From contig PLLO01000011.1 of assembly GCA_003142255.1 (NCBI GenBank), forward strand, positions 439,597 to 503,596: a DNA stretch of 64,000 bases. The letters are read 5' to 3'. The notes beneath the pieces were generated by a model that saw nothing but the letters and a program-made list of their open reading frames with translations, was not told the DNA's origin and did not search any database. Position numbers and translations under genes: made by a program. This document shows, in pieces, positions 1,558 through 60,432 of this stretch; position 1 is the stretch's first letter; the number at the start of each line of letters is the position of its first letter. This DNA is from Bacteroidales bacterium. GTDB lineage: Bacteria > Bacteroidota > Bacteroidia > Bacteroidales > VadinHA17.

Positions 1558-1740
1558 AAAGACTAGATAAATCAGTTTAGCAAAACCTTCCGAACTTTAT
1601 TATTCCTTTTCATGAATATGTCTTTGGCTCCAGGTTCGTCAAATGTGCCAAAATTTTGCTATTATTCAGATCATTAAAATTCTACTGCAAATTAGACCGA
1701 AATGGGAGATGACTTATTCCCGGTTAAGTTTATTTAACCT

Positions 1741-2997
1741 TTAAATTTTAACAACGATGTGTTTTTTAATGTACTCCGGATCAATCTCAATTCCCAATCC
1801 CGGACCTGAGGGTACTGTCACAACTCCGTCATCGCTTGATAAAGTTGAAGTTGAGCATGTGAACGGTAATTCATCGTTAAAACCTTTGAATTCATGGAAT
1901 GGTCCAGCGTTGGGAATAGACGAAGCAAAGTGCATCATATAAAGATATCCAAGACCTGAACCGGAGATGTGAGGGGTACACTTTTTACCGAATGCTTCAG
2001 CCATCCTTGCTACTTTCACAGATCTGACCATTCCTCCAAAATAGAACATATCAGGCTGAACAACCTGGAGAGCGTCATTTGCAATGAGCCAGCGGAAGGC
2101 ATGAATACTTGCCTCCTGTTCTCCTCCGGCTATTGGTATTTTAAGAGCATCCCTGACTTGCAGTGTTTCCTCGTACCAGTCAAACGGCACCGGCTCCTCA
2201 TAAAATGCATAATGATACTCTTCCATTAACCTGCCGATCCTGATAGCTTCATCAGCAGTATAGGAACCGTTTGAATCGGCATAAATAATCATCTTGTCCC
2301 CGAAAGTCTTCCTTACCAGCGGGATGAGCTTTTCACTCCGGCCAGAAGGTGATTCGAAATTGTTACTCATTCTTCCGCCGACTTTGAATTTCAATGCTTT
2401 GGCCTTCGATTCCCCGACTTCTTTGAGCAAATGTTCAATCGTAACTTCTGGTGTGATTCCCCGTTCTCCGTTTGCCTGGTAAACGGCAATCTTCCTGTTA
2501 TGTATCTCTCCGATAAGCTTGCCAATTGATTTTCCTGATATTCTGCCGAGCATATCGAGGATTGCAAATTCGATTGTAGCCAGAGGTACCCAAAGGGCAA
2601 GACTCTGCATCTTGTAATTGCTCTGGTAAACATATGCTTCATCAATGAGCTTCTCAAGATCACGGGCATCTTTACCAATGAAGAGAGGTTGAAGCCGTTT
2701 TACAAATATCGGGTACAGGGAGACCATCTGGTCATTGTTTGCTACCGCGATCCCTGTTGCACCATCTTTGGACCTGACCCTGCATAAAAAAGTGTTCTTA
2801 AGTCTTAAAAGTTCCAGAGTTTCAATAATTACCGGTGTTTTGAAAAGTTCATTTTTTAAAACAGGTTTACTGATTATTTCATCAAGCGCAGCATAATTTT
2901 CCTTAAGATCTTTCTTCTTTGAGGAAATAGAGGGCAATGCTGCACCAAAGCCTGCAGCTACTGAAGTTGATATGAATGTTCGGCGATCTGTTTTCAT
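1741..2997 (-). CDS. Exported enolase-superfamily enzyme (mandelate racemase / sugar-acid dehydratase type)
   Basis: 418 residues. The N-terminus carries a Tat-like signal (RRTFIS then a short hydrophobic stretch, residues 5-20). The mandelate racemase/muconate-lactonizing fold is supported by the catalytic KxK pair K203/K205, metal ligands near D241 (ADSNG), E267/E268 (YEEPVP) and E293 (GGEQ), D316 and the general base region H343 (TPHISG). Family members dehydrate aldonic or uronic acids such as galactonate, or racemise alpha-hydroxy acids. Which reaction is used here is unknown. A Tat-exported member suggests acid-sugar chemistry in the periplasm. It lies directly downstream of the pectate lyase gene on the same strand, so a role on pectin-derived acids is reasonable inference. 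Confidence 0.85.
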   Translation of the reverse strand: MKTDRRTFISTSVAAGFGAALPSISSKKKDLKENYAALDEIISKPVLKNELFKTPVIIETLELLRLKNTFLCRVRSKDGATGIAVANNDQMVSLYPIFVKRLQPLFIGKDARDLEKLIDEAYVYQSNYKMQSLALWVPLATIEFAILDMLGRISGKSIGKLIGEIHNRKIAVYQANGERGITPEVTIEHLLKEVGESKAKALKFKVGGRMSNNFESPSGRSEKLIPLVRKTFGDKMIIYADSNGSYTADEAIRIGRLMEEYHYAFYEEPVPFDWYEETLQVRDALKIPIAGGEQEASIHAFRWLIANDALQVVQPDMFYFGGMVRSVKVARMAEAFGKKCTPHISGSGLGYLYMMHFASSIPNAGPFHEFKGFNDELPFTCSTSTLSSDDGVVTVPSGPGLGIEIDPEYIKKHIVVKI

Positions 2998-3019
2998 AGG
3001 TTAATATTTATTATTGAGT

Positions 3020-3104
3020 TACTCTACCCCCTTCCCGGCCTTCCCCCACGGGGGAATGAGTTGGTTTAACATTTCCCCCTTGGGGGAAAATGAAAGGGGG
3101 TATA
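3020..3104. repeat. GC-rich palindromic dispersed repeat (C5/G5 hairpins)
   Basis: The spacer between the dehydratase and the pectate lyase contains hairpins built from CCCCC/GGGGG arms (TTCCCCCACGGGGGAA and TTTCCCCCTTGGGGGAAA), flanked by outer arms TACCCCCTT and GAAAGGGGGTA. A second copy is at 36592-36681. This is a non-coding dispersed element that could act as an RNA hairpin between the two genes. Confidence 0.65.
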
Positions 3105-3115
3105 TGGTCGTGGGT

Positions 3116-4201
3116 CTATTTCACCCATTTTGCTTTCCATGCAGGATAGAGTTCGAGGATCTCCCTTGGGGCATCAGTGTACCAGTTGTACCCGGTTCTT
3201 CTTTCATAACCTATCTCAGCAAGGGTTTGCTTTTTGATTCCATCCCTGTCGCAGAAATATGGAAGTTCGGTATCGAGATCATAGAACCGGCCCCAGAGAT
3301 CGCCTGCATTCGGATCTTCAACTACCCTTCTGTCGGGCTTACCGTCACTGTTTTTGAAGTATTCTATCCGGCAATGTTTTACCCTGTGTGAATCGAGCCA
3401 TTCCACGGCACCGTTTACGGCTTTGATTACATCAGGTGTCGGCTTCTCGATCTCCATGAGCATTTTTATCAGTCCGCATGACTCTGCACCGCTGAATGAT
3501 GGCAATTCGTATGAGCGGGCTTTGGCAGGCAGCAATGTATTCTCATCATGCTGAGCACACCATACGGTTGGCTTCCCTTTGACAACTATCTGCGTCTTAA
3601 GGATGCATTTAATTCCCTTTTCATATGCTTTCCTTGAATCACTTATTTCCTTCGCGGTGACAATTGATTCATACAAAGGCTTCCTGTTAAAAATATCCTT
3701 CAGCAGCTCAAGCAGGTTATATGTTGCATTGTCGTTAAAGGTAATGTGGGTATAATAACCCTTCCGCAAAGGGTAGAACATTGGCCAGCCTCCATTCTTG
3801 TATTGGGCATCGAGTATAAACTTCAATCCCCGGTCGAAAGAATTTTTATAGGAAGGGGTCTTTGTTTTGCTATACATCCTGGCAAGGAACTTCATCTCTG
3901 TGGTAGTAGCATCGTTATCGAAGATAGCATCATTGAGCCCTTTTTCATCGTTGATTTTGGCTTTCTCAGGATCCGTCAGAGGCTTATGAAGAGGCAGGTT
4001 CTTTGGCCATCCTCCAATATCACGCTGATAAAGAAGTATATTTTCTGCAACCCTTACTGACTCATCCGATCCGTACCATTCATCCGGCATCTGTGTCGCA
4101 ACATATTTCCATGGCAGCTGGCTGATGGGAACCTGTGATGAGGCAATGAATGAGTTTAAAAAGAATATTGCTCCTGCAAGAGCTAAACTGATTTTGGATT
4201 T
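3116..4201 (-). CDS. Secreted pectate lyase, polysaccharide lyase family 10 type
   Basis: About 361 residues from the chosen start. An in-frame ATG lies 33 bp upstream (4234), but the ATG at 4201 begins a clean signal peptide (MKSK, a hydrophobic run, then SSQ), so it is preferred. Family-10-type pectate lyase features are NGGWP near residue 137, TFNDNATYN, WCAQHD, the motif RSYELPSFSGAES and RRTGYNWY near the C-terminus. These enzymes cleave de-esterified homogalacturonan by calcium-assisted beta-elimination, with an Asp/Arg-rich active site. It should act in the periplasm or on the cell surface. It sits between the agarase-like hydrolase and the enolase-superfamily gene on the same strand, which suggests a small pectin-handling cluster. 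Confidence 0.9.
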   Translation of the reverse strand, partial: KSKISLALAGAIFFLNSFIASSQVPISQLPWKYVATQMPDEWYGSDESVRVAENILLYQRDIGGWPKNLPLHKPLTDPEKAKINDEKGLNDAIFDNDATTTEMKFLARMYSKTKTPSYKNSFDRGLKFILDAQYKNGGWPMFYPLRKGYYTHITFNDNATYNLLELLKDIFNRKPLYESIVTAKEISDSRKAYEKGIKCILKTQIVVKGKPTVWCAQHDENTLLPAKARSYELPSFSGAESCGLIKMLMEIEKPTPDVIKAVNGAVEWLDSHRVKHCRIEYFKNSDGKPDRRVVEDPNAGDLWGRFYDLDTELPYFCDRDGIKKQTLAEIGYERRTGYNWYTDAPREILELYPAWKAKWVK

Positions 4202-4264
4202 CATAAGATTTTTATTTATAGCTGAATATAACATTTCCGTACTCCTTCCACCCTGTTCTGGTGC

Positions 4265-7049: not shown

Positions 7050-8417
7050 ATGCGTTCATCTCTTGTTATAATTTTCTCATGGATTCTTCTTACCGGTGTC
7101 AATTGCCAGTCAGGGAGAGTTACGGGTAAGAAGAATGATAGCCTGGCGTTCCATAAATGGGCTCCGGAACCGCCCATGGGATGGAATAGCTGGGATTGCT
7201 TTGGCCCTACTGTTAAGGAAGATGAGGTCAGGGCAAATGCCGATTATATGGCTTCCCATCTTAAGAAATTCGGATGGAAATATATAGTTGTCGATATACG
7301 CTGGTATGTCGAAAATGATAAATCAGGCGGCTATAACCAGACTGACCCAAAATATGTAATAGACGAATATGGACGATTGCAGCCTGCCGTGAACCGGTTC
7401 CCTTCCTCATCCGACGGAAAAGGATTTAAACCCCTGGCTGATTATATTCATGGAAAGGGTCTTAAATTTGGTATTCATGTTATGCGCGGCATTCCGGTGC
7501 TGGCAGTCAATAACAATCTTCCGGTATTGGGTACAAATGTTACAGCAAGAGATATAAGCTCGGCCGAAGGACAGTGCCCCTGGCTAAGGGATATGTACAC
7601 GGTCTCAGCCGGAAAAACAGGTGCTCAGGAATACTATAACTCAATAATCGGCCTCTATGCTTCATGGGGTGTGGATTTTCTGAAAATTGATGATCTCTCT
7701 TCTCCTTATCATTCTGAGGAGATTGAAATGATAAGGAAGGCTATCGACCGGTGCGGAAGAGAAATTGTACTGAGCATGTCTCCCGGACCGACTCCTGTTG
7801 AACGGATCAGCCATATTAAGCAAAACGCAAATATGTGGCGTACCGTCGATGATTTCTGGGACAACTGGAAACAGTTGAAGCATCAATTTGAAGTATTTGA
7901 AAGATGGGCACCTTATGTTGCAGCAGGCTCATGGCCTGATGGAGATATGCTGCCTCTTGGGCATATTGGCATCCGTGCTGAAAGAGGAAAAGACAGAGTT
8001 TCCGGGTTTACTAAAGATGAACAATATACGGTGATGACCCTCTTTGCCGTTTTCCGTTCCCCCCTGATGTTTGGGGGAAATCTTCCTGATAATGATGAAT
8101 TTACCCTGTCTCTTATAACAAACAGGGACGTAATTGAATTGAACCGGCATTCTATAAACAATAAACAACTATTCAGAAATGGTGATTTGATTGCCTGGAC
8201 TGCCGATGATCCGGAAACCGGTGACAAATACCTGGCACTTTTTAATGCCTCCGACACGGTAAATCCTGTTGAGATGTCAGTGAAGTTTGAGCAGCTTGGT
8301 TTATCAGGAACACATTCCGTTAAAGATCTCTGGACAGGAGAAAAGCTCGGAAGATTTACAAACGCGTTTGCCCGCACTATTAATCATCACGGTGCAGGAC
8401 TTTACAGGATACATTAA
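7050..8417 (+). CDS. GH27 family glycosidase, probable alpha-galactosidase
   Basis: 455 residues with an N-terminal export signal (residues 1-20). The sequence GVNC before Q20 could be a weak lipobox, so surface anchoring is possible. Family signatures are PPMGWNSWD (residues 41-49), the nucleophile region FLKIDDL with D214, and the acid/base region WRTVDDFWDNW with D268. A C-terminal beta-sandwich-like region follows (about 350-455). GH27 enzymes release terminal alpha-linked D-galactose, and some act on beta-L-arabinopyranose, by a retaining mechanism. It is 20 bp from the GH31 gene downstream, so the two are probably co-transcribed. Confidence 0.92.
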   Translation: MRSSLVIIFSWILLTGVNCQSGRVTGKKNDSLAFHKWAPEPPMGWNSWDCFGPTVKEDEVRANADYMASHLKKFGWKYIVVDIRWYVENDKSGGYNQTDPKYVIDEYGRLQPAVNRFPSSSDGKGFKPLADYIHGKGLKFGIHVMRGIPVLAVNNNLPVLGTNVTARDISSAEGQCPWLRDMYTVSAGKTGAQEYYNSIIGLYASWGVDFLKIDDLSSPYHSEEIEMIRKAIDRCGREIVLSMSPGPTPVERISHIKQNANMWRTVDDFWDNWKQLKHQFEVFERWAPYVAAGSWPDGDMLPLGHIGIRAERGKDRVSGFTKDEQYTVMTLFAVFRSPLMFGGNLPDNDEFTLSLITNRDVIELNRHSINNKQLFRNGDLIAWTADDPETGDKYLALFNASDTVNPVEMSVKFEQLGLSGTHSVKDLWTGEKLGRFTNAFARTINHHGAGLYRIH

Positions 8418-8437: not shown

Positions 8438-10831
8438 ATGAAACTATCTGCATTAAATCCTAAACTGATCCTGGTTGCACTCGCACTTACTTTTTTGACT
8501 GTTTCATCTCCGGCAAAGGTGGTGTCATTTACAAAGAACAGCGACGGGATCACTTGTACACTTGACAAAGGGTTCATGAAAGTGAAAATCTGCATGGACA
8601 ATATGGTTGAGGTTAAGTACACTTCACTTCCAGTATTGCCTGACAAACCTTCCCTGGTAGTTACCAACGAGTGGAAATCAACCCCTGATTTCGCTGTAAC
8701 TGAGAGTGCGGCTGAGATCATTATTACTACAGATGATCTGAAGGTAATTGTAAATAAGCAGAGCAACTCAATCAGATACACCGATCTGAAAGGAAACCTC
8801 ATACTTGGTGAAGATGAATTGCTTGGTAAAACGATGTCGGGTGTCACAATTGCCGGCATTCCAACTTACAATTGCACAACTCTGTTCAATTCACCTGCCG
8901 ATGAATCACTTTATGGACTGGGCTGCCATCCCGAAGATTCACTTTCGATAAACTATAAGGGACGCAACCAGAATATGGCTATAAAATATATGACCGGGGC
9001 AATTCCGGTCCTTCTGTCGACCAGGGGTTATGGACTTATGTGGGACAACTACTCGGCTTCGAATTTCTACGGCGCTGAAGCAGCAAACACTAAATTCAGC
9101 TATGTGTCGGAAAGCGGCAATATGATCGATTATTATTTTATCTACGGTCCCGGTTTCGATCGTATCATATCTTCCTATCGGGTTGCTACCGGTGCTGCGC
9201 CTATGTTCCCGAAATGGTCCTTCGGCCTTTTCCAGTCGCAGGACAGGTATAAAAGCCAGGCTGAGGTCCTATCGGTAAAAGACAAATACCGCAACGGGAA
9301 GATCCCTGTCGATTGTATTGTTCAGGATTGGTTTTACTGGGAACCCAATGTGATCGGATCTCATGTGATGTGGCCTGCAAGATATCCTGATCCAAAATAC
9401 ATGGTGGATGAACTGCATAAAGCAAATATTCATGCCATGATCTCAATCTGGCCTGTCTTCTCAAAAGGGACAAATACATTCGATCAGATGGCACATTCCG
9501 GCGGAATGACAGATATTCTCTGGGATAACGCAATGACACATATCCTTGATAGCTATTATGATGCCCACAGTCCTCAGGCCCGTCAGCTATACTGGAAGCA
9601 GGCTTATGACAGCCTTGTCGGACGCTACGGATGGGATGCATGGTGGGTCGATCAGTGCGAACCTGATAACGGGGGCAATCTTGATGCGAGAAGGAAAAGC
9701 AATTTTGCTATCGGAAGGGGAATCGATTATTTTAATACCTATTCACTGATGCATTCAACAGGGCTATACAATAACTGGAGAAGGGATATCCCGGAGAAGA
9801 GAGCCTTCTTCCTGATCCGTCAGGCATTTGCCGGTCAGCAGCGGAATGCTTCAACCTTATGGTCGTCAGATATTACGTGTACCTGGAATGCTTTCAGGAA
9901 TCAGGTACCTCAGGGGATTAATGCCTGTGCTTCAGGTATTCCTTACTGGACTTCCGACATTGGAGGATACCATTTTCACTGGCAGGCCCCGGATTGGTCA
10001 GCGCCGAAAAACCGCGAGCTGTTTACCCGATGGTTTCAGTTCGGTACATTCAGCCCCATTTTCAGAATACATGGGAAGGGCGAAAGGGCACTCTTCTCCG
10101 ATAACTGGGATGCCCCGACGAAAGCTATTCTGTTGAACTACGATAATCTGCGCTACAGGCTTTTACCTTATATATATTCACTTTCGTGGAGGGTAACCAG
10201 CGAAGGCTACACCATTATGCGATCGCTTGCATTCGATTTTCGCGAAGATACCGGCATAAAATCAATTCCCGACCAGTATATGTTTGGCCCGGCATTCCTG
10301 GTAAATCCTGTGACCGAGCGTATGTACTCGCTTCCGGGTAAAAAAGATTCTAAGAAGACCCGGAAAGTATACCTTCCCAAATCGGCTGGCTGGTATGACT
10401 TCTGGACAGGCAAACTGATTCCGGGCGGACAAACAATCGATGCCGCATCACCAATTGAAACCATTCCGCTTTATATAAAAGCCGGTTCGATTGTGCCTAT
10501 GGGACCATATCTTCAGTATGCCACCGAAAAAGCAGCCGACCCGCTTGAAATACGTGTATACCCTGGTGCCAACGCAGAGTTTGTTCTGTATGAGGACGAA
10601 AACGATACTTACAATTATGAACAGGGCAAATATTCCACAATTGGTATAAGCTGGAATGAAACGGAAAAAACCTTAACTATCGGCAACCGACAGGGCGATT
10701 TCCCGGGAATGCTGAAAGACCGGACTTTACGGATAGTCTGGGTTAACAGTAAAAACGGAACCGGGATTGAACCGGCTAAACAGGCAGAGACTGTTCAATA
10801 TTCAGGCAAAGAGATAAAGATTAAAAAATAG
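8438..10831 (+). CDS. GH31 family glycosidase (alpha-xylosidase / alpha-glucosidase type)
   Basis: 797 residues with a signal peptide (about residues 1-26, hydrophobic run then SSPAK). The GH31 nucleophile is D405 in WWVDQCEPD and the acid/base is D478 in WSSDI. The barrel is preceded by an N-terminal beta-sandwich (about 30-240) and followed by C-terminal beta domains including a DUF5110-like part (YEDENDTYNYEQG, about 705-720). The QDWFYW segment is common in alpha-xylosidases and alpha-glucosidases. Pairing with GH27 suggests joint removal of alpha-linked D-galactose and D-xylose or D-glucose from hemicellulose oligosaccharides. No hairpin terminator is evident after the gene. Confidence 0.93.
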   Translation: MKLSALNPKLILVALALTFLTVSSPAKVVSFTKNSDGITCTLDKGFMKVKICMDNMVEVKYTSLPVLPDKPSLVVTNEWKSTPDFAVTESAAEIIITTDDLKVIVNKQSNSIRYTDLKGNLILGEDELLGKTMSGVTIAGIPTYNCTTLFNSPADESLYGLGCHPEDSLSINYKGRNQNMAIKYMTGAIPVLLSTRGYGLMWDNYSASNFYGAEAANTKFSYVSESGNMIDYYFIYGPGFDRIISSYRVATGAAPMFPKWSFGLFQSQDRYKSQAEVLSVKDKYRNGKIPVDCIVQDWFYWEPNVIGSHVMWPARYPDPKYMVDELHKANIHAMISIWPVFSKGTNTFDQMAHSGGMTDILWDNAMTHILDSYYDAHSPQARQLYWKQAYDSLVGRYGWDAWWVDQCEPDNGGNLDARRKSNFAIGRGIDYFNTYSLMHSTGLYNNWRRDIPEKRAFFLIRQAFAGQQRNASTLWSSDITCTWNAFRNQVPQGINACASGIPYWTSDIGGYHFHWQAPDWSAPKNRELFTRWFQFGTFSPIFRIHGKGERALFSDNWDAPTKAILLNYDNLRYRLLPYIYSLSWRVTSEGYTIMRSLAFDFREDTGIKSIPDQYMFGPAFLVNPVTERMYSLPGKKDSKKTRKVYLPKSAGWYDFWTGKLIPGGQTIDAASPIETIPLYIKAGSIVPMGPYLQYATEKAADPLEIRVYPGANAEFVLYEDENDTYNYEQGKYSTIGISWNETEKTLTIGNRQGDFPGMLKDRTLRIVWVNSKNGTGIEPAKQAETVQYSGKEIKIKK

Positions 10832-10916: not shown

Positions 10917-11940
10917 ATGGTCAACGTACGACAATCGATATAGCAAAGCAACTCAATGTATCACGTGTTATTGTTTCCAAGGCGTTGCGTGATCATCCTG
11001 ACATATCGCCGGAGATGAAGAAAAAAATAGGGATAGCAGCCAGGAAGATGGGTTATGTTCCGAACCTGAGATTGCCCGGCAACTAAATTCACGACGAACA
11101 TATACCATAGGAATAGTTGTTCCTGACCTCGAAAACAGTTTCTTCTCATATATCGTCGATAGTATGATTGATTATGCGACAGAGCATAATTATTATGTAA
11201 TACTTACTGTCTCCCGTGAGAAAAGCAACATCGAGAGACAGAATATAGAAAATCTTATAGGAATGAGAGTAGACGGATTACTGGTTTGTCTTTCACAGGA
11301 AACAACAGACAAACAGGTATTCACGACAGTTGAAAAAATGAAAATTCCATTAGTCTTTTTTGACAGGGCTTTTAAGAACATGAAATTTTCAAGAGTTGTA
11401 TTTAATGATAAACTGGGGGCTGAAAATATTCTGAACCGGATTATACTTGAAGGGTACAATAAAATCGCACATTTTGCCGGGTACTCAAAAACAAATATTG
11501 GGAAGGAAAGATTTGAAGGATTTCTTGAAGCTCTTACGAAAAATAAAGTTCCAATTCATAAAGATTGGATCATAGAAGGTGGCTTTGAGTTGAAAGATGG
11601 TTATGAATCTTTTAAAAAACTCAATAATCTTGATAACCTTCCTGAGGTCATTTTTGCAGTAAACGACCGGGTTGCCCTTGGTGCTTATAAAGCGGCAAAA
11701 GAAGCTGAACTAAGGATCCCCGAAGATATAGGGATATTTGGTTATGGATTCAGTGAAATTACTGATTTCTTTGATCCTCAATTAACGGTAATAAATCAGG
11801 ATCCCAGAAAAATGGGGGCAGAGGCCATCAGACTTCTGATAAATGAAGTCGAGAATAAGAAAAAAAGCGGTAATAGTATAATTTATATCGAAGAAGAATT
11901 TCTCTGGAGAAAATCTGTTAAGCGTAAAGTGAAAAAGTAA
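10917..11940 (+). pseudogene. LacI-family transcriptional regulator, disrupted by two frameshifts
   Basis: Three reading frames together give a normal LacI-type regulator. An ATG at 10917 is one base out of frame with the helix-turn-helix (TTIDIAKQLNVSRVIVSKAL, codons from 10928). The helix-turn-helix frame runs to GYVPN and then hits a stop at about 11084. The effector domain resumes in a third frame from about 11068 (EIARQLNSRRTYTIGIVVPD) and reads cleanly to 11940. Each break is explained by loss of one base, the first in a GG run at 10919. If intact it would be about 340 residues with a periplasmic-binding-protein-like sensor. It may be an inactive gene or a sequencing error. The distal ORF from ATG 11164 lacks the DNA-binding domain. 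Confidence 0.8.
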
Positions 11941-14454: not shown

Positions 14455-17400
14455 ATGAAAAAAAATCTTCAAAACCATATTCCCATAAAGAAACCGGGAA
14501 TAAAAAAACTTCTACTAACCATGAAACTAGCTCTGATAATCATTTTTCTTAGCGTTCTGCAAGTTAGTGCAAATGTCTACTCACAGATTACTGTCAATCT
14601 GGATATTAGGGAGAAATCCGTTCGTGAAGTGCTTAAAACAATTGAGCAACAAAGTCAGATCCGGTTTTTTTACAGCGACGACTTGCTGGCCATGAATGAT
14701 CTGATTGACGTTAAAGCAGATAACAAAAACATTATAAGCGTGTTAAATGATATTTTTGTAGGATCTGCGCTTACTTATAAGACCTACGATAATAATTTAA
14801 TCGTAATAGCTCCCAGAGTATTTTTACAACAATTGAAAATAACCGGTACTGTTACTGAAAAGAATGGTACACCTATGCCTGGAGTAAACGTTGTTGTTAC
14901 AGGAACAACCCAGGGAACGCTGACCGATTTTGCCGGTAAATACAGTATTGAAGTTCCTTCGGGATCAAAAAGCCTGACATTCTCATTTACCGGAATGGAA
15001 CCCCAGGAAATCAGTATCGGGACATCAACTCTAATCAACATTACTATGTCTGAGTCGACAGTTGGACTGGAAGAGGTTGTGGTTGTTGGATATGGAACCC
15101 AGAAAAAAGTAAATTTAACAGGATCTGTCGGGAATGTTCAGATGAACGATATTGAAAGCAGACCTCTGACTAACTCAAGTTTGGCTTTACAAGGTACTGT
15201 TGCAGGTGTATATGCTTTGCAAAGTTCAGGAAAACCGGGCGACGACAATGCGGTTATTGATATTAGAGGTGTTGGAACATTTGGCGATAATATGCCGTTA
15301 GTAGTAATAGATGGATTCCCTGGCAATATGTCTGATGTAAATGCCAATGACATTAACTCAATATCAGTATTGAAAGATGCGGCTTCTTCCTCCATTTATG
15401 GAAATAGAGCAGCCAATGGTGTCATTTTGATTACCACGAAGAAAGGATCCGCCGGTAAGATGAAAATTAACTATAATGGCTACGTTGGTGTACAAAACGC
15501 AACCAGATTACCGAGCGTTTTAAACTCGGTTGAATATACCACACTCCGTAATGAGGCGTCGGTAAATTCAGGGAGTGTTCCAAATTACACAGATGCGGAC
15601 ATTCAAAAATATGCAGCACACAATGACCCGATGTATCCCGACATTGATTATTTTAAAGTATATTATAGTAAGGCATATACACAGAATCACCGCTTGAGTA
15701 TAACAGGTGGTAACGAAAATGTGCAGTACGCATTTATGCTTGGACATTTAAATCAAGACGGCATTCTTGTAGCTACTAATTATAAAAAGACAGATTTCCG
15801 TTCTAACATTGATGCCTTTTTATTAAAAGATAAAAGGTTAAGAGTGTCCACTAAATTAGCTGGTAACCTTGGTGTTAAAAATGAGCCTAACAGTAATTGG
15901 AATGCTGAATGGTACGCTACGCTTTCTCCAATATATCCCCTTAAAAATGCAGCCGGACAGTTTATGTCAGTAAATGGTGAATTAAATCCATATGCAGAAA
16001 TTGTGACAGGCAGCACGGCACTAACGAAACGATATGATTTTAGTGGACAGGCAGAAGCTGAATATAAAATCATTAAAGATTTAAGTGCGCAGGTTACATA
16101 CGGGTATAACGTTATATCATCAAATATTAACGCTTTTAATGCAAATGTAGTATTACAAAATAAGGATGGAAGTACAAAAACAGAACCATCAGATTTGAAT
16201 ATTACAAATGAAACTGATGTTCAAACGATGTTAACCACTTTACTTAAATACAATAAAACATTCGGAAAGCATGAACTAAATTTCTTGGCAGGGTATTCTG
16301 AAGAAGAGTTTACTTATGGTTGGCAGAGTGGCTATCGAAAGAATTTTGTTAACAATTCCCAACGAATACTCAATCTTGGTGATGCAGCCACTCAGACAAA
16401 TAATGCCGGAAGCTACGACCTTGGTTTGCGATCATTTTTTGGGCGTATAAATTATGCATTCAACGGAAAATATTTGTTTGAAGCTAACATTAGGCAAGAT
16501 GGCTCTTCACGATTTGCACCGGGAAATCAGTGGGGAACGTTTCCATCATTTTCCGGTGGTTGGATAATCTCGAAAGAGGAATTTATGAAAAACTTTAGCT
16601 GGCTGAATTTGCTAAAATTACGTGCATCATGGGGGCAGCTTGGCAACCAAAATATCAGTAATTATTATAATGGTAGTGATATCTTATCATCAGGTCAAAA
16701 CTACTCTCTTGGTGGTACATTATATTCCGGTGTGGCTGTAACACAAATGACCAATAAACAATTAACATGGGAAACTGCACAGCAATTGAATTTTGGTGTT
16801 GATATGTCTTTGAAATATGGCTTTGATCTGACCGCCGATTATTTTGACAAAAGAACAAAAAATTTATTGTTGCCGCGACCTATTCCGCTTACTATGGCAG
16901 AATCTGCACCTTACGTAAATGCCGGTGAAGTTCAGAATAAAGGCATTGAAGCTTCCTTAACCTACCGGAAAACGTTTTCAAATGGTCTTAAGTTTCGCAC
17001 TACGCTTAACGCATCTCACATTGTAAATAAAATTACAAAAATGAATGCACCGGAGCAGCTTAATTCGCCAAAAGCTATTAAAGTGGGTGCCGCCATTAAT
17101 TCATTCTATGGATATGAAATGGATGGAATTTACCAAATTTCCGATTTTGATTATTCCGGCGGAGTGTACACTTTAAAACCAGGTGTGGTTTCTGTTTCTA
17201 ATTATAATGCACAGCCGGGAGATATTAAATTTAAAGACCTTAACGGAGATGGCGTTGTGGATAATAATCATGACAGAGCTATAATCGGTAAACAGTTTCC
17301 GGATCTTACTTATTCGTTGAACCTAAATTTGGAGTGGAAAGGGTTTGACTTAGGCGCATTCTTTCAAGGTGTACAGGGCATTCAGGGTTATTTCTATTAT

Positions 17401-17772
17401 GAAATTGCTTGTCCATTTAGTGGTGTTGCCAATTTAGGTTCGTGGTGGAAAGACAGATGGACGCCAACAAATCCATCCAACACAATGCCACGGGTAACTT
17501 TAGATGAGTATCGTACTAATGTTCATTCGTCTTTCTATATGGAGAATGCATCCTACCTTCGTTTGAAGAACATTGAATTGGGTTATACCATAAATCCAAA
17601 AATCATTTCTAAAATAGGTATCAGCTCTATAAGAGTTTATGGAAATATTCAGAATGCTTTTACCATTACGAAGTTTAAAGGTTTTGATCCCGAGCAAACA
17701 ACTGATCAAACCAGAGCTGAAGCCTTTCCACAGGTTCGTGTTATGACTATGGGTATAAATGTTAACTTTTAA
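14455..17772 (+). CDS. SusC/RagA-type TonB-dependent outer-membrane transporter with STN domain
   Basis: 1105 residues. The order is a signal peptide (about 20-43), an STN domain (about 48-125, SVREVLKTIEQQSQIRFFYS) for signalling to FecR, a carboxypeptidase-regulatory-like beta-sandwich (about 127-200, VTEKNGTPMPGVNVVVTGT), a TonB-box-like EEVVVVGYGTQKK, a plug with DIRGVGTF and the SusC signature ANDINSISVLKDAASSSIYG, then a 22-strand barrel to the end. It imports oligosaccharides with its SusD partner, powered by TonB. The STN domain links it to the sigma/anti-sigma pair upstream. SusD starts 12 bp downstream. The substrate is not readable from sequence. Confidence 0.97.
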   Translation: MKKNLQNHIPIKKPGIKKLLLTMKLALIIIFLSVLQVSANVYSQITVNLDIREKSVREVLKTIEQQSQIRFFYSDDLLAMNDLIDVKADNKNIISVLNDIFVGSALTYKTYDNNLIVIAPRVFLQQLKITGTVTEKNGTPMPGVNVVVTGTTQGTLTDFAGKYSIEVPSGSKSLTFSFTGMEPQEISIGTSTLINITMSESTVGLEEVVVVGYGTQKKVNLTGSVGNVQMNDIESRPLTNSSLALQGTVAGVYALQSSGKPGDDNAVIDIRGVGTFGDNMPLVVIDGFPGNMSDVNANDINSISVLKDAASSSIYGNRAANGVILITTKKGSAGKMKINYNGYVGVQNATRLPSVLNSVEYTTLRNEASVNSGSVPNYTDADIQKYAAHNDPMYPDIDYFKVYYSKAYTQNHRLSITGGNENVQYAFMLGHLNQDGILVATNYKKTDFRSNIDAFLLKDKRLRVSTKLAGNLGVKNEPNSNWNAEWYATLSPIYPLKNAAGQFMSVNGELNPYAEIVTGSTALTKRYDFSGQAEAEYKIIKDLSAQVTYGYNVISSNINAFNANVVLQNKDGSTKTEPSDLNITNETDVQTMLTTLLKYNKTFGKHELNFLAGYSEEEFTYGWQSGYRKNFVNNSQRILNLGDAATQTNNAGSYDLGLRSFFGRINYAFNGKYLFEANIRQDGSSRFAPGNQWGTFPSFSGGWIISKEEFMKNFSWLNLLKLRASWGQLGNQNISNYYNGSDILSSGQNYSLGGTLYSGVAVTQMTNKQLTWETAQQLNFGVDMSLKYGFDLTADYFDKRTKNLLLPRPIPLTMAESAPYVNAGEVQNKGIEASLTYRKTFSNGLKFRTTLNASHIVNKITKMNAPEQLNSPKAIKVGAAINSFYGYEMDGIYQISDFDYSGGVYTLKPGVVSVSNYNAQPGDIKFKDLNGDGVVDNNHDRAIIGKQFPDLTYSLNLNLEWKGFDLGAFFQGVQGIQGYFYYEIACPFSGVANLGSWWKDRWTPTNPSNTMPRVTLDEYRTNVHSSFYMENASYLRLKNIELGYTINPKIISKIGISSIRVYGNIQNAFTITKFKGFDPEQTTDQTRAEAFPQVRVMTMGINVNF

Positions 17773-17784
17773 AAGATCAGGATT

Positions 17785-19344
17785 ATGAAAAATCTATATA
17801 AAATTATCACTTCATTTCTGCTTTTATCTGTTCTATTTAGTTGTTCGAAAGATCTTCTGGATAAAACACCATTAGACAGGTTGTCTCCTTCAACGTTCTA
17901 TCAGAATGAAACACAGTGCAAGATGGCACTGATGGGTATTTATAATGCCATTCAGCCAAATGCAACACCCACTCATTTTTATCAGTTTGAATTTATGTCC
18001 GATAACGGCTATTGCCAGGCTGCCTGGCAAGGTTCAAATGAAGTTGGCTCATGGAGTACCAACTCAACCAGTTGGGCTCCGAATGCAAAATGGTCACAGG
18101 ATTATACAATTATTGCCAGAGCTAATGAGTTTCTAAAGGATATAGCTGCTGCCTCAGTAGACGATGCAGTTAAAACTCCGATGGTGGCAGAAGCAAAATT
18201 TTTAAGGGGTTATGCCTATTCCGATTTGATTAATTATTTCGGTGATGTGCCGCTTATTACTGAAGTTCTGACATTGTCCGATGCGTTTGTAAAAAGAACT
18301 GCTAAAAGCGATGTGCTTACTCAAATTCTCACCGACTTTACAGATGCAGCAAGTGTTCTTCCTACCTCTTATTCAGCTTCAAATATAGGACGTGCCACAA
18401 AAGGGGCTGCGCTGGCATATAAGGCAAAGATATTACTCTATAATCAAAAATGGGCTGATGCAGCACAGGCGACCAAAGATGTTATGGATTTAAAACTTTA
18501 TGATTTTTATCCAAACTATTCTGATCTTTTCACAGAAGCCCATGAAGATAATATTGAAGTTATTTTTGATATTCAGTATATTCCAACAACTCAATCGCAA
18601 CCATGGCCGGCTGAGCCATTTGTTCTTGGTACTTGGCAAACATCGAACATTACAGCCGATATGATTAATTCATATTACATGACCAATGGTAAACCTATTA
18701 CAGATGCTACATCCGGCTATAACGATCAGGATCCCTATACTAACAGAGACCCAAGGTTAGCTGCTACAGTGGTGTTACCGGGTTCAAAATATGGCTCAGC
18801 TACTTTTATACCTGCCAGCTATAGTGAATACCCCTGCGGCGCCAAACCACGCAAGTATGCAGAGTATGGAATTGCTGACGTGAACAACAGTTCTCTGAAT
18901 ACTATCTTGATGCGTTATGCAGACATCTGCCTGATGCGTGCGGAAGCGCTTATTGAATCCGGTAGCACGGCCCAGGAAATTTATGACCTGATTGATAAAG
19001 TACGTGCGAGAGTAGGTATGCCTACAGTTGAATCGGTAGAAGGTACCGGGCTTACCCAAACTCAGCTTCGTCAAATAATGCGGCATGAGAGAAGGGTTGA
19101 ATTTTGTATGGAAGGAACACGATACGCCGATATGCTGCGATGGCAAGATGTATCGTTAGTGCATGATGTATATGGTTATGATAAATCGAAATTGTCTGAT
19201 CCTGCAAGCCCTGCAACATGGACGTTTTCGCAAATAAAAATAGCTACAACAACATTTAATGCAACCAAGGGATGGCTATGGCCGATTCCTCAAGCTGATA
19301 TAGATATAAATAAAAATTTACTTCCTAATAACCCGGGATATTAA
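17785..19344 (+). CDS. SusD/RagB-type surface glycan-binding lipoprotein
   Basis: 519 residues. A lipoprotein signal ends at lipobox VLFSC (C20). The mature protein shows the SusD pattern: LDKTPLDRLSP near the N-terminus, TPR-like helices with AKFLRGYAYSDLINYFGDVPLI (about 138-160) and the C-terminal RHERRVEFCMEGTRYADMLRW (about 432-452), ending with KNLLPNNPGY. It is the lid and binding partner of the SusC barrel encoded 12 bp upstream. A strong terminator follows directly, so the SusC/SusD transcript probably ends here and no hydrolase is part of this unit. Confidence 0.97.
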   Translation: MKNLYKIITSFLLLSVLFSCSKDLLDKTPLDRLSPSTFYQNETQCKMALMGIYNAIQPNATPTHFYQFEFMSDNGYCQAAWQGSNEVGSWSTNSTSWAPNAKWSQDYTIIARANEFLKDIAAASVDDAVKTPMVAEAKFLRGYAYSDLINYFGDVPLITEVLTLSDAFVKRTAKSDVLTQILTDFTDAASVLPTSYSASNIGRATKGAALAYKAKILLYNQKWADAAQATKDVMDLKLYDFYPNYSDLFTEAHEDNIEVIFDIQYIPTTQSQPWPAEPFVLGTWQTSNITADMINSYYMTNGKPITDATSGYNDQDPYTNRDPRLAATVVLPGSKYGSATFIPASYSEYPCGAKPRKYAEYGIADVNNSSLNTILMRYADICLMRAEALIESGSTAQEIYDLIDKVRARVGMPTVESVEGTGLTQTQLRQIMRHERRVEFCMEGTRYADMLRWQDVSLVHDVYGYDKSKLSDPASPATWTFSQIKIATTTFNATKGWLWPIPQADIDINKNLLPNNPGY

Positions 19345-19837: not shown

Positions 19838-19909
19838 TTTGCTTGACAAATAGTATTATTATTTTTATATCGTTAAATTATCGCGAAAGTAATCGTGTAA
19901 GTTAATTTT
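19838..19909 (+). promoter_or_regulatory. Candidate promoter with conserved 49-bp operator-like motif, copy 2
   Basis: TTTG at 19838, then 18 bp, then TATTTTTA at 19860, resembles the Bacteroidota promoter. The motif at 19861-19909 reads as three tandem units of 11-12 bp (ATCGTTAAATT, ATCGCGAAAGTA, ATCGTGTAAGTT). It aligns without gaps to 12079-12127 and has the same position relative to the -7-like box. It lies 15 bp before the GDP-mannose 3,5-epimerase start codon. Confidence 0.55.
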
Positions 19910-19923
19910 AATCTTGATGCATT

Positions 19924-20922
19924 ATGAAGAAGATATTAGTTGCCGGAGCCGGTGGATTTATCGGTGGACACCTTGTAAAAGAGCTGATTAAAAAAGGCCA
20001 TGCGGTAAGGGCAATCGATATTAAACCTTTAAATGAATGGTACCAGGTATCCGAAGATGCAGATAATTATGTTCTTGATCTTCGTCTCAGGGAAAACTGC
20101 CATAAGGCTGTCAATGGATGCAATGAAGTATTCAATTTTGCAGCCGACATGGGGGGTATGGGCTTTATCGAAAATAATAAAGCCGCCTGTATGATAACAG
20201 TCCTCATAAATACCCATCTGCTGATCGCTGCCCGTGAATGTGGAATTGACAGGTATTTTTATGCATCCTCAGCTTGCGTATACAATGGCGATAAACAGAC
20301 TGATCCTGATAATCCGGGATTAAAGGAATCTGATGCCTACCCGGCTATGGCTGAAGACGGATATGGCTGGGAAAAGCTTTTCAGCGAACGTATGTGCCGC
20401 CATTTCTCTGAGGACTTTGGACTGACGACCAGGGTTGCCAGGTTCCATAATGTATATGGGCCATTCGGTACGTTTGACGGCGGCCGCGAAAAAGCTCCTG
20501 CGGCAATCTGCAGGAAGGTTATCGAAGCCGGCATAACCGGCAAAAAAGATATCGTTATATGGGGTGATGGACTCCAGACCAGGAGCTTTATGTACATCGA
20601 TGACTGTATCAAAGGTATACAGGATATCATGTACAGTAATATCAAGGTGCCGATAAACCTCGGAAGCACTGAAATGGTTTCCATCAACGAGCTTGTTGAT
20701 ATAGTGGAGGATATTGCAGGATTGAAGCTCCAACGGAAATATGATCTTGATGCCCCGAAGGGGGTCAGAGGAAGGAACAGCGATAATACCCTGATCAGAA
20801 AATACCTTAACTGGGAACCATCAATCCCGCTCAGGGATGGTATGAAGAAAACCTATGACTGGATAAAAGAGCAGATTATCTCTGAGAAGGATAAGAAGAA
20901 GATTGAAAGATTCAATAAATGA
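19924..20922 (+). CDS. GDP-mannose 3,5-epimerase (plant-type NAD-dependent epimerase)
   Basis: 332 residues, no signal peptide, cytoplasmic. It has the extended short-chain dehydrogenase fold with NAD-binding GAGGFIG (residues 8-14). Resemblance to plant GDP-D-mannose 3,5-epimerase is unusually close: ADMGGMGFI (74-82), YASSACVY with C118, YGWEK with Y147/K151, RFHNVYGPFGT, GGREKAPAAICRK with K190, GDGLQTRSF and GVRGRNSDN. C118, Y147, K151 and K190 sit at a constant offset of 27 from the plant C145, Y174, K178 and K217, so the whole catalytic set is kept. The plant enzyme makes GDP-L-galactose and GDP-L-gulose. It heads an operon with a GHMP-kinase-like gene 12 bp downstream, then GH29 and an esterase. 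Confidence 0.88.
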   Translation: MKKILVAGAGGFIGGHLVKELIKKGHAVRAIDIKPLNEWYQVSEDADNYVLDLRLRENCHKAVNGCNEVFNFAADMGGMGFIENNKAACMITVLINTHLLIAARECGIDRYFYASSACVYNGDKQTDPDNPGLKESDAYPAMAEDGYGWEKLFSERMCRHFSEDFGLTTRVARFHNVYGPFGTFDGGREKAPAAICRKVIEAGITGKKDIVIWGDGLQTRSFMYIDDCIKGIQDIMYSNIKVPINLGSTEMVSINELVDIVEDIAGLKLQRKYDLDAPKGVRGRNSDNTLIRKYLNWEPSIPLRDGMKKTYDWIKEQIISEKDKKKIERFNK

Positions 20923-20934
20923 CTTGTTCCGGCT

Positions 20935-21753
20935 GTGAAAAATAAAAAAGTCCTTATGCGCGGTCGTTACGAACTCATTCCTGAACCGGGGTTGCCGGTA
21001 CGCTCAAGCTCAGGAACCAAGCGTGATATGCGATTCCCGTACAGGCTCTGTATCGCCGGCGGCTGGGTCGATCAGCCTTGGGTATCTGAGATACATCCGG
21101 GTTCGGTAGTGGTTGCACAGATCTGGCCTACCATGGATTTCAACGACCGCTCGGGTCTTGCGACTAGCTCGAGGAGCGTAGGAATAAAGCTTTGGGGAGA
21201 CAGGTACCCTGACGGCGATCACCAACAGAATGCCAGGCTGCTATTTGGAGCCGAGAATCCTCCTGGTAAGGAATATATTTCCGGTTCTCAGGATCACATA
21301 GGATTGCTTTACCCCGGGATCAGCCGTCTGGATTACAATGGAAAGTACTGGCCTGAGAAAATAGAATCGATCGTTGATGCGGAAACCTGTGACTGGTTAT
21401 CTGATGTTATCCATCTCGTTCCTCTTGAGCCACGCCCCAATGATTATAACCCTCTGAAAATAATGAACCTTGAAAAGACTATAGTAAAGGAGCTTGGTGA
21501 GGCAGGGGAAAGATGCTGGGATGCAATTATAAAGAAGGATATTGCCATGCTTGGCAAATCAATGACTGACACTTTGCTGTCATGGAAAAAAATGCTTCCC
21601 CTGACAGTCCCGGATCGGGTAATGAAAGAGCTCGAAACAAAATATCTTCCTTATTATCCGGGCGCCATAACTTCAGGATGCGGAGGCGGATACATGATGG
21701 TAGCCTCTGAAAAAGCTGTCCCGGGAGCTATTAAGATAAAAGTCAGATATTAA
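20935..21753 (+). CDS. GHMP-kinase-like protein (putative sugar kinase)
   Basis: 272 residues, starting at GTG 20935 (an in-frame ATG lies at 20956), cytoplasmic. Three GHMP-like segments are seen: RLCIAGGWVDQPWVS near residue 40, which resembles the substrate-binding GGGTD region of fucokinase and heptokinase types; GLATSSRS near 76, in the place of the GLGSSSA phosphate loop; and GAITSGCGGGYMMVAS near 250, which matches the C-terminal GAGGGG motif. At 272 residues it is shorter than the usual 320-350, and the middle loop is altered, so activity is uncertain. Position between an epimerase making GDP-L-galactose and an alpha-L-fucosidase suggests L-fucose or L-galactose as substrate. That is inference. 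Confidence 0.6.
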   Translation: MKNKKVLMRGRYELIPEPGLPVRSSSGTKRDMRFPYRLCIAGGWVDQPWVSEIHPGSVVVAQIWPTMDFNDRSGLATSSRSVGIKLWGDRYPDGDHQQNARLLFGAENPPGKEYISGSQDHIGLLYPGISRLDYNGKYWPEKIESIVDAETCDWLSDVIHLVPLEPRPNDYNPLKIMNLEKTIVKELGEAGERCWDAIIKKDIAMLGKSMTDTLLSWKKMLPLTVPDRVMKELETKYLPYYPGAITSGCGGGYMMVASEKAVPGAIKIKVRY

Positions 21754-21778
21754 GCAACAATATAATTATAACTTAATT

Positions 21779-23296
21779 ATGAAAACATCATTAAAGAATA
21801 AGACCTATTTTTCTGTATTGTTCTGTTTTGTAACATTTGTTACAATTTCAGCGCAGCAGGGCAAGCTTCCGATTGCTGAAGGTCCGTACAAGCCGACAGA
21901 CGAATCTTTAATGCAGTACCGGTATCCGGAATGGTTCCGTGATGCCAAATTCGGAATCTGGGCACACTGGGGACCGCAGGCAGTTCCGCGTCAGGGCGAC
22001 TGGTATGCAAGGAGAATGTACCAGGAGAAAGATCCGGCTTACAAATATCATGTTGAACATTACGGACATCCTTCGGTATTCGGTTATAAGGATATTATTC
22101 CCTTATGGAAAGCCGAAAAATGGGATCCCGATAAGCTGATGGCACTCTACAAAAAGACTGGTGCAAAATATTTCGTCAGCATGGGTACTCATCATGACAA
22201 TTTCTTTTTGTGGAATTCAAAGATCCACAAGTGGAATTCAGTTAACATGGGACCAAAAAAAGATGTAGTTGGTACCTGGCAGGAAGCGGCAAAAAAGCAG
22301 GGACTTAAGTTTGGCGTTTCGGAGCATCTTGGTGCAAGCTATACATGGTTCCAGGCAGCACACGGCTCCGACAAGGAGGGGCCAAAGGCCGGAGTGCCTT
22401 ACGATGGAGCTGATCCTCAGTTCAGCGATCTTTACCACGATGGCACAACCCCTGACGATAAAGGATGGTTAACAAATAACCTAATATTCCAGGTAGAATG
22501 GTTCCGCAGTATCAGGGAACTGATAGATAATTATCATCCCGACCTTCTTTACTCTGACTGCTCAATGCCTTTCGAAAATGTGGGGCGAAGCCTTATAGCC
22601 CATTATTATAACCAGGATATTGCCAGGAACAACGGGAAAGTTGATGTGGTATATACCTGCAAGCAGCCGTCCGGAGGAAAATGGGTGCAGGATGTCGAGC
22701 GTGGAGTGCTGGATACTCTTAGCAGCTATCCCTGGCAGACTGATACTTCAATCGGGGACTGGTATTACCGGACCGGGCAGAAGTATAAAACCTCCGGTGA
22801 GGTTATACAAATGCTCGTCGATATAGTTAGCAAGAACGGCAACCTCCTTCTGAACGTGGTGCAGACTCCCGAAGGCGACCTTGAGCCTGATATGCTTCAG
22901 ATACTTGATGAGATCGGAACATGGACGGCTGCCAACGGGGAAGGAATATACGGAACAAGGCCATGGAAGATCTATGGAGAAAAGCCTGAGAGTCAGACAC
23001 AGGTTAAGCGGGGACGTTTTGATGAGAATTATAAATTAAGCTTTAAAGATATCAGGTTCACGACAAAGGATGGCAACCTGTATGCTTTCTGCCTTGGGAC
23101 CCCGACTGAGGATATTATCATAAAATCACTGGGGGAAAATTCCACGCTTACAGAAAAACAGGTATCTTCTGTTAAAATGCTGGGAGGCGATACTAAAATA
23201 AAATGGTCACAGGAAAATGACCGGATGGTTATCAAAAAACCTTCTAAAATGCCTTCATGGCAGGTATTGGGATTTAAAATAGAATTCAAAAAATAA
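21779..23296 (+). CDS. GH29 alpha-L-fucosidase (possibly active on alpha-L-galactosides)
   Basis: 505 residues with a signal peptide (residues 1-25, ending ISAQ). The GH29 barrel starts at WFRDAKFGIWAHWGPQAVP. It contains YFVSMGTHHDNFFLW, the nucleophile region LLYSDCSMPF with D260, and a C-terminal beta-sandwich (about 400-505). GH29 enzymes release alpha-linked L-fucose by a retaining mechanism, and some family members also tolerate L-galactose, its 6-hydroxy analogue. The acid/base residue cannot be assigned with confidence. It is the third gene of the epimerase operon, 25 bp after the kinase-like gene and 15 bp before the esterase. Confidence 0.93.
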   Translation: MKTSLKNKTYFSVLFCFVTFVTISAQQGKLPIAEGPYKPTDESLMQYRYPEWFRDAKFGIWAHWGPQAVPRQGDWYARRMYQEKDPAYKYHVEHYGHPSVFGYKDIIPLWKAEKWDPDKLMALYKKTGAKYFVSMGTHHDNFFLWNSKIHKWNSVNMGPKKDVVGTWQEAAKKQGLKFGVSEHLGASYTWFQAAHGSDKEGPKAGVPYDGADPQFSDLYHDGTTPDDKGWLTNNLIFQVEWFRSIRELIDNYHPDLLYSDCSMPFENVGRSLIAHYYNQDIARNNGKVDVVYTCKQPSGGKWVQDVERGVLDTLSSYPWQTDTSIGDWYYRTGQKYKTSGEVIQMLVDIVSKNGNLLLNVVQTPEGDLEPDMLQILDEIGTWTAANGEGIYGTRPWKIYGEKPESQTQVKRGRFDENYKLSFKDIRFTTKDGNLYAFCLGTPTEDIIIKSLGENSTLTEKQVSSVKMLGGDTKIKWSQENDRMVIKKPSKMPSWQVLGFKIEFKK

Positions 23297-23311
23297 CTTA
23301 ACAGACCCGAC

Positions 23312-24073
23312 ATGGAAAACTCGAACAATTCACGCCGCTCTTTTCTGAAGAAAGCTGCACTGGGAAGCCTCGCAGCGATAAGTATTCCCGAGATTCTGGC
23401 AGCTTCCGCTCCAAAGTATAAGACAAAACATATGTCTTTGTCAAAAGGACAGATAATCTTGTTCCAGGGTGATTCGATCACCGATTGGGGACGAGCCAAG
23501 GATGATCCTGGCTTTAATACTTCACACAGCCTGGGGTCAGGATATCCAATGCTGACTGCAGCATCGATCCTTGAGAAGCATGCTGACCTGGATCTTAAGA
23601 TTTACAATAAGGGCATATCAGGAAATAAGGTTTACCAGCTTGTCGACAGATGGGAGACCGACTGCTTTGCAATCAAACCCGATATATTAAGCATTCTCAT
23701 CGGGGTTAACGATTTATGGCATAAGCTTAATGGTACATATAACGGCACCGTTGAAATTTACAGAAAGGATTATATTGCCCTGCTTGAGATGACTAAGAGA
23801 GTTCTTCCAAATGTAAAGCTGATAATTGGTGAGCCCTTCGGTGTGCGCGGGATAAAAGCCGTCAATGATAACTGGTACCCTGAATTCTATGGATACCAAA
23901 AAGCTGCACGCGAGATCGCCGCTCAGTTCGGAGCTGCATTCATTCCATATCAGGCAATTTTCGACGAGGCCCGGAAACATGCTCCCGGAGTTTACTGGAC
24001 TGCCGACGGTGTTCATCCTACTCTTGCCGGTGCCCAGCTCATGGCTCAGGCATGGCTTCAGACAATCAAGTGA
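23312..24073 (+). CDS. Exported SGNH/GDSL-type hydrolase (carbohydrate esterase)
   Basis: 253 residues. The N-terminus has a Tat-like signal (SRRSFLKKAALGSLAAIS). Block I is FQGDSITDWG with nucleophile S55. Block II glycine is in KGISGNKV, block III asparagine in IGVNDLW, and the catalytic Asp/His pair is D232/H235 in DGVHPT. This is a complete SGNH active site. Such enzymes commonly remove acetyl or other acyl groups from plant polysaccharides. Last gene of the epimerase operon; co-expression with an alpha-L-fucosidase suggests de-esterification of the same side chain. It ends 86 bp before the convergent sensor kinase gene. Confidence 0.92.
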   Translation: MENSNNSRRSFLKKAALGSLAAISIPEILAASAPKYKTKHMSLSKGQIILFQGDSITDWGRAKDDPGFNTSHSLGSGYPMLTAASILEKHADLDLKIYNKGISGNKVYQLVDRWETDCFAIKPDILSILIGVNDLWHKLNGTYNGTVEIYRKDYIALLEMTKRVLPNVKLIIGEPFGVRGIKAVNDNWYPEFYGYQKAAREIAAQFGAAFIPYQAIFDEARKHAPGVYWTADGVHPTLAGAQLMAQAWLQTIK

Positions 24074-60366: not shown

Positions 60367-60432
60367 TTTCCCTATTTTCACACACCTTAATAAACCTGCA
60401 ACATGCTACTTGATCAATTAAAAATACAAACC

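Follow-up and report, generated by a model that had tools for sequence, protein, structure and literature searches.

A 64,000-nucleotide stretch of a Bacteroidales genome (contig PLLO01000011.1; the whole stretch is hereafter called the window) encodes a GDP-mannose 3,5-epimerase (GME; 19924-20922, 332 aa), directly followed by a shortened gene of a two-domain family in which an HxGH nucleotidyltransferase is fused to a GHMP-type kinase (20935-21753, 272 aa). In relatives, GME and the intact fusion form a conserved pair, and comparisons of the sequences suggest that, on balance, the two proteins constitute a unit which salvages or catabolizes free L-galactose. The original prediction concerned a four-gene cluster, in which the pair is followed by a glycoside hydrolase family 29 (GH29) enzyme of the alpha-L-fucosidase family (21779-23296, 505 aa) and a GDSL/SGNH hydrolase (23312-24073, 253 aa). 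Gene order and spacing are as described: all four open reading frames (ORFs) lie on the plus strand, separated by 12, 25 and 15 bp; the start given for the cluster, 19838, is 86 bp upstream of the first start codon (19924). The identities of the last two genes also hold, with matches to PF01120 (Alpha_L_fucos; 319.8 bits against a cut-off of 25.2) and PF16757 (33.4 bits) in the GH29 protein and to PF13472 (77.5 bits) in the SGNH protein. Judged by eye, the former begins with a hydrophobic leader and the latter with one resembling the twin-arginine type. As a whole, the four-gene order is not generally conserved, since the exact contiguous order recurs at only two (L007 and L009) of 23 other loci of the fusion clade described below as clade A, some of the 23 being cut by contig ends. 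The widely conserved part is the GME-fusion pair, which is a more interesting object than the cluster. The observation is confirmed, and its earlier interpretation is partly supported.

The first gene had been called a plant-type GME with the full catalytic set and both characteristic boxes, and only the label needs correction. The closest PDB match of the window protein is Arabidopsis GME (2c59, 6.9e-100). UDP-glucuronate decarboxylase, the family that comes next, matches at only about 1e-28, and other PDB families do so at that level or more weakly. Residues C118, Y147, K151 and K190 are invariant in all 40 aligned GMEs, including the plant enzyme, as are S116, N176, R220 and R284, and the GGREKAPAA and GVRGRNSDN boxes are present. 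S116, Y147 and K151 form the Ser/Tyr/Lys triad of extended short-chain dehydrogenases/reductases, C118 and K190 correspond to the cysteine acid and lysine base of GME, and R284 to the arginine that acidifies the cysteine. R284 was located through the alignment with 2c59, the chain numbering of which is 2 above that of PMC8787198. GDP-fucose synthase differs from GME in that a histidine replaces the lysine base and a lysine replaces the cysteine-acidifying arginine (PMC8787198); the same source describes GME as reversible. "Plant-type" is misleading, since a bacterial GME, GM35E of Methylacidiphilum fumariolicum, has been characterized (PMC6678494) and the window GME belongs to a bacterial clade. 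This clade comprises 22 rows (support 93/97, below the tree program's star), all of which adjoin a fusion, and the plant enzyme falls outside of it; long branches leave the position of the plant enzyme unsure, and the outgroup Fcl was placed among the GMEs. With this placement, a plant origin of the gene is unsupported. Judged from its sequence, the window GME is a member of a wider bacterial family and is not specially plant-like. GMEs at 1e-90 or better were found in 20 of 296 sampled Bacteroidota genomes, including the genome from which the window derives (its own genome). A search of the latter with the window GME revealed no second GME, because the three other matches are at most 27% identical. 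The window protein thus has the sequence family, the Cys/Lys pair, the Ser/Tyr/Lys triad and the acidifying arginine in common with the Arabidopsis enzyme and GM35E. Unlike for these enzymes, its gene is paired with that of a putative free-sugar kinase/nucleotidyltransferase and with glycoside hydrolases, and we propose that the reaction runs in reverse.

The second gene had been described as GHMP-kinase-like, which is correct for the retained kinase domain (21031-21753), but the gene is actually a shortened form of the two-domain fusion. Searched on its own, the 272-aa protein hit nothing in Pfam or NCBIfam at 1e-3, nor in the PDB at E 1, which is explained by its relatives, since the copy is a shortened fusion. 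Intact relatives are about 378 aa long, with an HxGH nucleotidyltransferase at the N-terminus and a GHMP-type kinase at the C-terminus. In the window copy, 106 codons are missing in frame, among them those of the HxGH motif, so that the N-terminal domain is gone. At the 28 N-terminal invariant positions, 23 residues are absent, three are changed and two are kept, whereas from residue 122 onward none of the 45 invariant positions is altered. In the two intact fusions scanned, PF01467 (the HxGH domain) was recognized at 6.3e-12 (L009) and 2.2e-13 (L002, a paralog in the own genome); a pyrophosphorylase half with beta-helix, of the type found in FKP, the Bacteroides fragilis L-fucokinase/GDP-L-fucose pyrophosphorylase, is absent from these two proteins, PF01467 being there instead. 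Pfam recognized the kinase half in one of them. The predicted structure model has a mean pLDDT (predicted local distance difference test) of 75.5, with low confidence at 129-138, 177-181 and 233-248.

The window kinase pairs with that of L007 inside clade A (support 99/92). Compared with this closest relative, the kinase domain has a ratio of nonsynonymous to synonymous substitution rates (dN/dS) of 0.10 and GME one of 0.046, and the ratio stays within 0.046-0.10 across GME, the kinase domain, GH29 and SGNH. In the kinase tree, the branches of the window copy (0.062) and of intact L007 (0.060) have nearly the same length. Changes on the window branch affect three of the 14 remnant residues, one of them at the junction, versus six of 240 kinase-domain residues (Fisher p 0.009, with small numbers). 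Because dN/dS is low, the branch is as in L007 and the changes are concentrated in the remnant, the kinase half seems to be maintained and the N-terminal remnant, now orphaned, to be drifting. An assembly artifact may lie behind the 106-codon deletion; a very recent one is made slightly less likely by the high share of changes in the remnant. Since the nucleotidyltransferase domain is missing, this step may need another enzyme in the window organism, or may be lost. A candidate for supplying it is a full-length clade-B paralog on contig C5 of the own genome, considered further below.

The fusion family splits into two clades, A and B, with support of 100/100 (28 and 37 rows, respectively, after extension, in a quick tree). 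Of the 28 clade-A loci, 26 have GME immediately upstream of the fusion and on the same strand. The 27th belongs to genome G329, where GME sits beside the half of the fusion that is found on a second contig; at the last one (L106, genome G321, 92% complete), no GME was found at 1e-80. By contrast, a divergent GME adjoins the fusion at only two of the 37 clade-B loci (L059 and L190). Among the first 26 clade-B loci, 13 are linked to GMD, and most of these also to Fcl; L059 contains GMD too but was counted as GME-linked. The clades differ from each other at 31 positions at high frequency. Among the 296 sampled genomes, the fusion was detected at 1e-60 in four (own genome included), and in three of these one copy adjoins GME. 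For the counts, duplicate contigs (L096-L099, L110 and L111) were dropped beforehand, L194 is in neither count, as no fusion ORF was called there, and the fusion fragments G321:C158 and G298:C191 and genome G483 were left out as separate loci. L014, L016, L114, L189 and L200 were kept in the trees despite contig-end cuts or frame problems. L018-L021 and L110 belong to clade B, L020 and L021 on long branches. At L016 (7658-8783), from a Prolixibacteraceae metagenome-assembled genome, the clade-A fusion is in two frames. The divergent GME and clade-B fusion of L190 (6764-9140) and L059 (8001-10253) perhaps represent independent GME pairing; the pair in L190 sits behind a LacI-like gene, and the setting of L059 looks glycan-synthetic by eye.

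Gene neighborhoods of the two clades are different. Counting proteins of at least 180 aa within 5 kb, which leaves out shorter ones, including mutarotases, we found among 99 neighbors at 23 clade-A loci 14 GH29, 13 LacI, six GDSL, five GH95, five GH31, five xylose-isomerase-like barrel and four ManC-type NTP transferase proteins. No glycosyltransferase family is among the 25 listed of the 87 families into which these neighbors fall. The 123 neighbors at 26 clade-B loci include 40 GDP_Man_Dehyd proteins (related epimerases are caught by this model as well), 15 Polysacc_synt_2, four Bac_transf and three Glycos_transf_2 proteins. Within 6 kb of clade-A fusions, a LacI gene is present at 14 of 24 loci and a GH29 gene at 17 of 24, that of the window included. 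Over all 28 clade-A loci, a major facilitator superfamily (MFS) permease is found in six, a mutarotase in seven and ManC in four (L015, L017, L108 and L114). L017 combines GME, fusion, ManC, FucP and a RhaM-family mutarotase, and L015 combines GME, fusion, ManC and a mutarotase. The order LacI-GME-fusion-mutarotase-MFS is common to L187, L188 and L189, which come from another class; the permease of L188 is split over two ORFs. The original prediction of a route handling L-galactose or L-fucose is supported by these relatives, through the pairing itself, the LacI and GH29 genes and, at some of the loci, FucP-type permeases and mutarotases. The four clade-A MFS permeases tested (L017, L102, L114 and L187) all pass the FucP equivalog cut-off, and so do all four clade-B permeases (L113, L020, L123 and L128). 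FucP of Escherichia coli has a KM of 0.9 mM for L-fucose, 7.4 mM for L-galactose and 12.2 mM for D-arabinose (PMC8784342). The transporter of L041 is a sodium symporter. A proposed marker of GH95 L-galactosidases, Thr370 versus His (PMC4491172), was tried and did not discriminate among the GH95 copies; the copy of L041 has Thr.

The kinase half is L-fucokinase-like. Searched against the PDB, the kinase family profile matches the fucokinase FKP best (9iip, 1.5e-10), followed by heptose kinases (1.1e-6 and 7.4e-6) and WcbL (0.05-0.07). R592, W599 and D601 of FKP, which contact the sugar (PMC11982464), align with an Arg, a Trp and an Asp that all 21 family members share, the window copy included. 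The stacking tryptophan of FKP is thus retained in the fusion family, whereas heptose kinase 3k85 has a glycine at that place. The sugar site of FKP also includes Gln761/Asp762; the family has an invariant Gln-Asp pair, in a stretch outside the HMMER alignment with FKP. FKP uses L-fucose and D-arabinose as well as L-galactose, the last about 100-fold less well as judged by Km; it is able to make GDP-L-galactose, and its pyrophosphorylase domain rejected mannose 1-phosphate (PMC11982464). FKP and the fusion have related kinase domains, common sugar-site residues and the same nucleotidyltransferase-then-kinase order. They differ in the nucleotidyltransferase half, which is HxGH cytidylyltransferase-like (PF01467) in the fusion and a pyrophosphorylase with beta-helix in FKP. 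A protein of the same described architecture is Amuc_1591 of Akkermansia muciniphila, a proposed fucose-nucleotidyltransferase; suppressor genetics tied it to an inhibition by D-arabinose that L-fucose or mucin relieves (PMC13313206). Amuc_1591 was proposed to serve envelope glycans, and section 15 of that paper mentions no GME partner.

L-fucose is 6-deoxy-L-galactose. Clade B can be read from these comparisons as salvaging L-fucose to GDP-L-fucose, and clade A, whose partner enzyme converts GDP-L-galactose and GDP-mannose into each other, as its L-galactose counterpart. In the route that we propose, plant glycans would be the source of L-galactose, set free by GH29 or GH95 enzymes; uptake would be through a permease, of the FucP type or another, and the required anomer would come from a RhaM-family mutarotase. 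Next, the GHMP kinase domain would convert L-galactose to L-galactose 1-phosphate, and the HxGH domain would link the latter to GMP, yielding GDP-L-galactose and pyrophosphate. GME would turn GDP-L-galactose into GDP-D-mannose, from which ManC, working in reverse and consuming the pyrophosphate, would release mannose 1-phosphate and GTP. The net reaction would be L-galactose + ATP to mannose 1-phosphate, a GDP counterpart of the Leloir pathway. We consider the chances about even that Bacteroidota have such a GDP-linked, Leloir-like pathway from L-galactose to mannose 1-phosphate, with GME running backwards. From gene content, gene order, the clades and the conserved residues, we infer all reactions and their direction, as well as the nucleotide and the sugar. 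The Leloir pathway of D-galactose follows the same logic of kinase, nucleotidyl transfer and NDP-sugar epimerase, but the proposed route would differ in using an L-sugar, GDP instead of UDP and a 3,5- instead of a 4-epimerase. L-galactose is likewise catabolized by the oxidative pathway of Luteolibacter LG18, which proceeds through dehydrogenases and sugar acids, with no NDP-sugar in the abstract (PMC12632266). Among the titles and abstract beginnings of open PMC papers, covering a part of the matches, we found no description of L-galactose use via GDP-L-galactose. If the proposed route exists, GME has a catabolic role opposite to that in plant vitamin C synthesis, and there is a non-oxidative route for a sugar found in corn xylan. 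L-galactose is also present in some xyloglucans and in rhamnogalacturonan II. A function would be assigned to the kinase/nucleotidyltransferase fusion family, and an enzyme pair would become available to make or recycle GDP-L-galactose. The clean split between a GME-linked clade and one often linked to GMD and Fcl makes the substrate prediction directly testable.

Several other explanations have to be weighed. The window module could be decaying and do nothing coherent there, which is compatible with any reading for the relatives; we regard this as somewhat doubtful. Decay is suggested by the nucleotidyltransferase domain, lost in frame, and by the LacI gene nearby, which is broken up over three frames, but the low dN/dS of GME, the kinase domain, GH29 and SGNH, the ordinary kinase branch with its full set of invariant positions and the concentration of changes in the remnant suggest otherwise. 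The pair may instead make GDP-L-galactose for the cell's own glycans, with ManC and GME producing it from mannose and the fusion recycling free L-galactose. Synthesis for the surface was also a reading of the original prediction. Sister clade B often lies beside genes of GDP-fucose synthesis, as its GMD linkage shows, and has glycan-assembly families among its neighbors; L059 unites a divergent GME and a clade-B fusion with GMD and Fcl; the two GMEs nearest to the window clade from outside (L042 and L043) are among genes that look glycan-synthetic by eye; and ManC beside GME fits the synthesis direction too. In clade A, however, glycoside hydrolases, LacI regulators and permeases predominate among the neighbors, and glycosyltransferases, seen near clade B, do not figure among the families shown, so that this explanation fits less well and we consider it unlikely.

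In another reading, which we find quite improbable, L-fucose or D-arabinose is the substrate of the kinase, and GME would either convert a GDP-6-deoxysugar (GDP-L-fucose to GDP-D-rhamnose) or serve an unrelated pool. L-fucose suits FucP, GH29 and the kinase family no worse than L-galactose does. Yet the own genome contains a match to the N-terminal domain of L-fucose isomerase (267.8 bits), and therefore L-fucose probably takes its usual route there; the high-frequency differences between the clades would suit a substrate shift, and GME accompanies clade A almost throughout but clade B rarely. Least probable of all is a role of the fusion as a heptose kinase/nucleotidyltransferase of the kind active in GDP- or ADP-heptose synthesis: heptose kinases do match the family profile, but FKP is favored over them, the stacking tryptophan is kept and the neighbors include GH29/GH95 enzymes, FucP and mutarotases.

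In the window organism itself, the L-galactose route may be partly broken, because the nucleotidyltransferase domain is missing and the nearby LacI gene is frameshifted. This LacI-type regulator gene (10917-11940, plus strand) has two frame changes, and tblastn with the L012 homolog recovers it as pieces in three frames. The ORF listed for it (11164-11940; Peripla_BP_3, 96.2 bits) is without the DNA-binding part, which is encoded upstream in two other frames, so the gene looks broken or affected by sequence errors. Upstream of it on the plus strand are a GH27-type melibiase gene (7050-8417; PF16499, 94.7 bits), a homolog of which adjoins GME in L009 and L011, and a GH31 gene (8438-10831; PF01055, 273.2 bits), a homolog of which adjoins GME in L007; the best NCBIfam model for the GH31 protein is alpha-xylosidase, far under its cut-off. 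SusC-like and SusD-like genes follow at 14455-19344 (plus strand; SusD_RagB, 158.2 bits, and SusC by eye), and together with the GH29, GH31 and GH27 genes they make up the pairing of a polysaccharide utilization locus. Compared with L007, the window has an additional block bearing SusC/SusD between GH31 and GME. Because in L007 GH31 is directly followed by GME, with no SusC/SusD between them, these two genes lie, by this comparison, outside the conserved core.

Elsewhere in the own genome there is one ManC homolog (37%). On contig C5 (L060, 12123-15633), the full-length clade-B fusion stands beside a GMD equivalog and a GDP-fucose-synthase-like (Fcl-like) gene under the cut-off. This fusion is probably an L-fucose salvage enzyme with a nucleotidyltransferase half unlike that of FKP. 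At one end of the window (214-4234, minus strand), genes for an amidohydrolase, an enolase-superfamily dehydratase-like protein and a pectate lyase possibly represent an oxidative sugar-acid route coupled with pectin breakdown. Toward the other end (58909-63555), a gene with weak matches to the C-terminal domain of L-arabinose/L-fucose isomerases is followed by one for a GH106 alpha-L-rhamnosidase.

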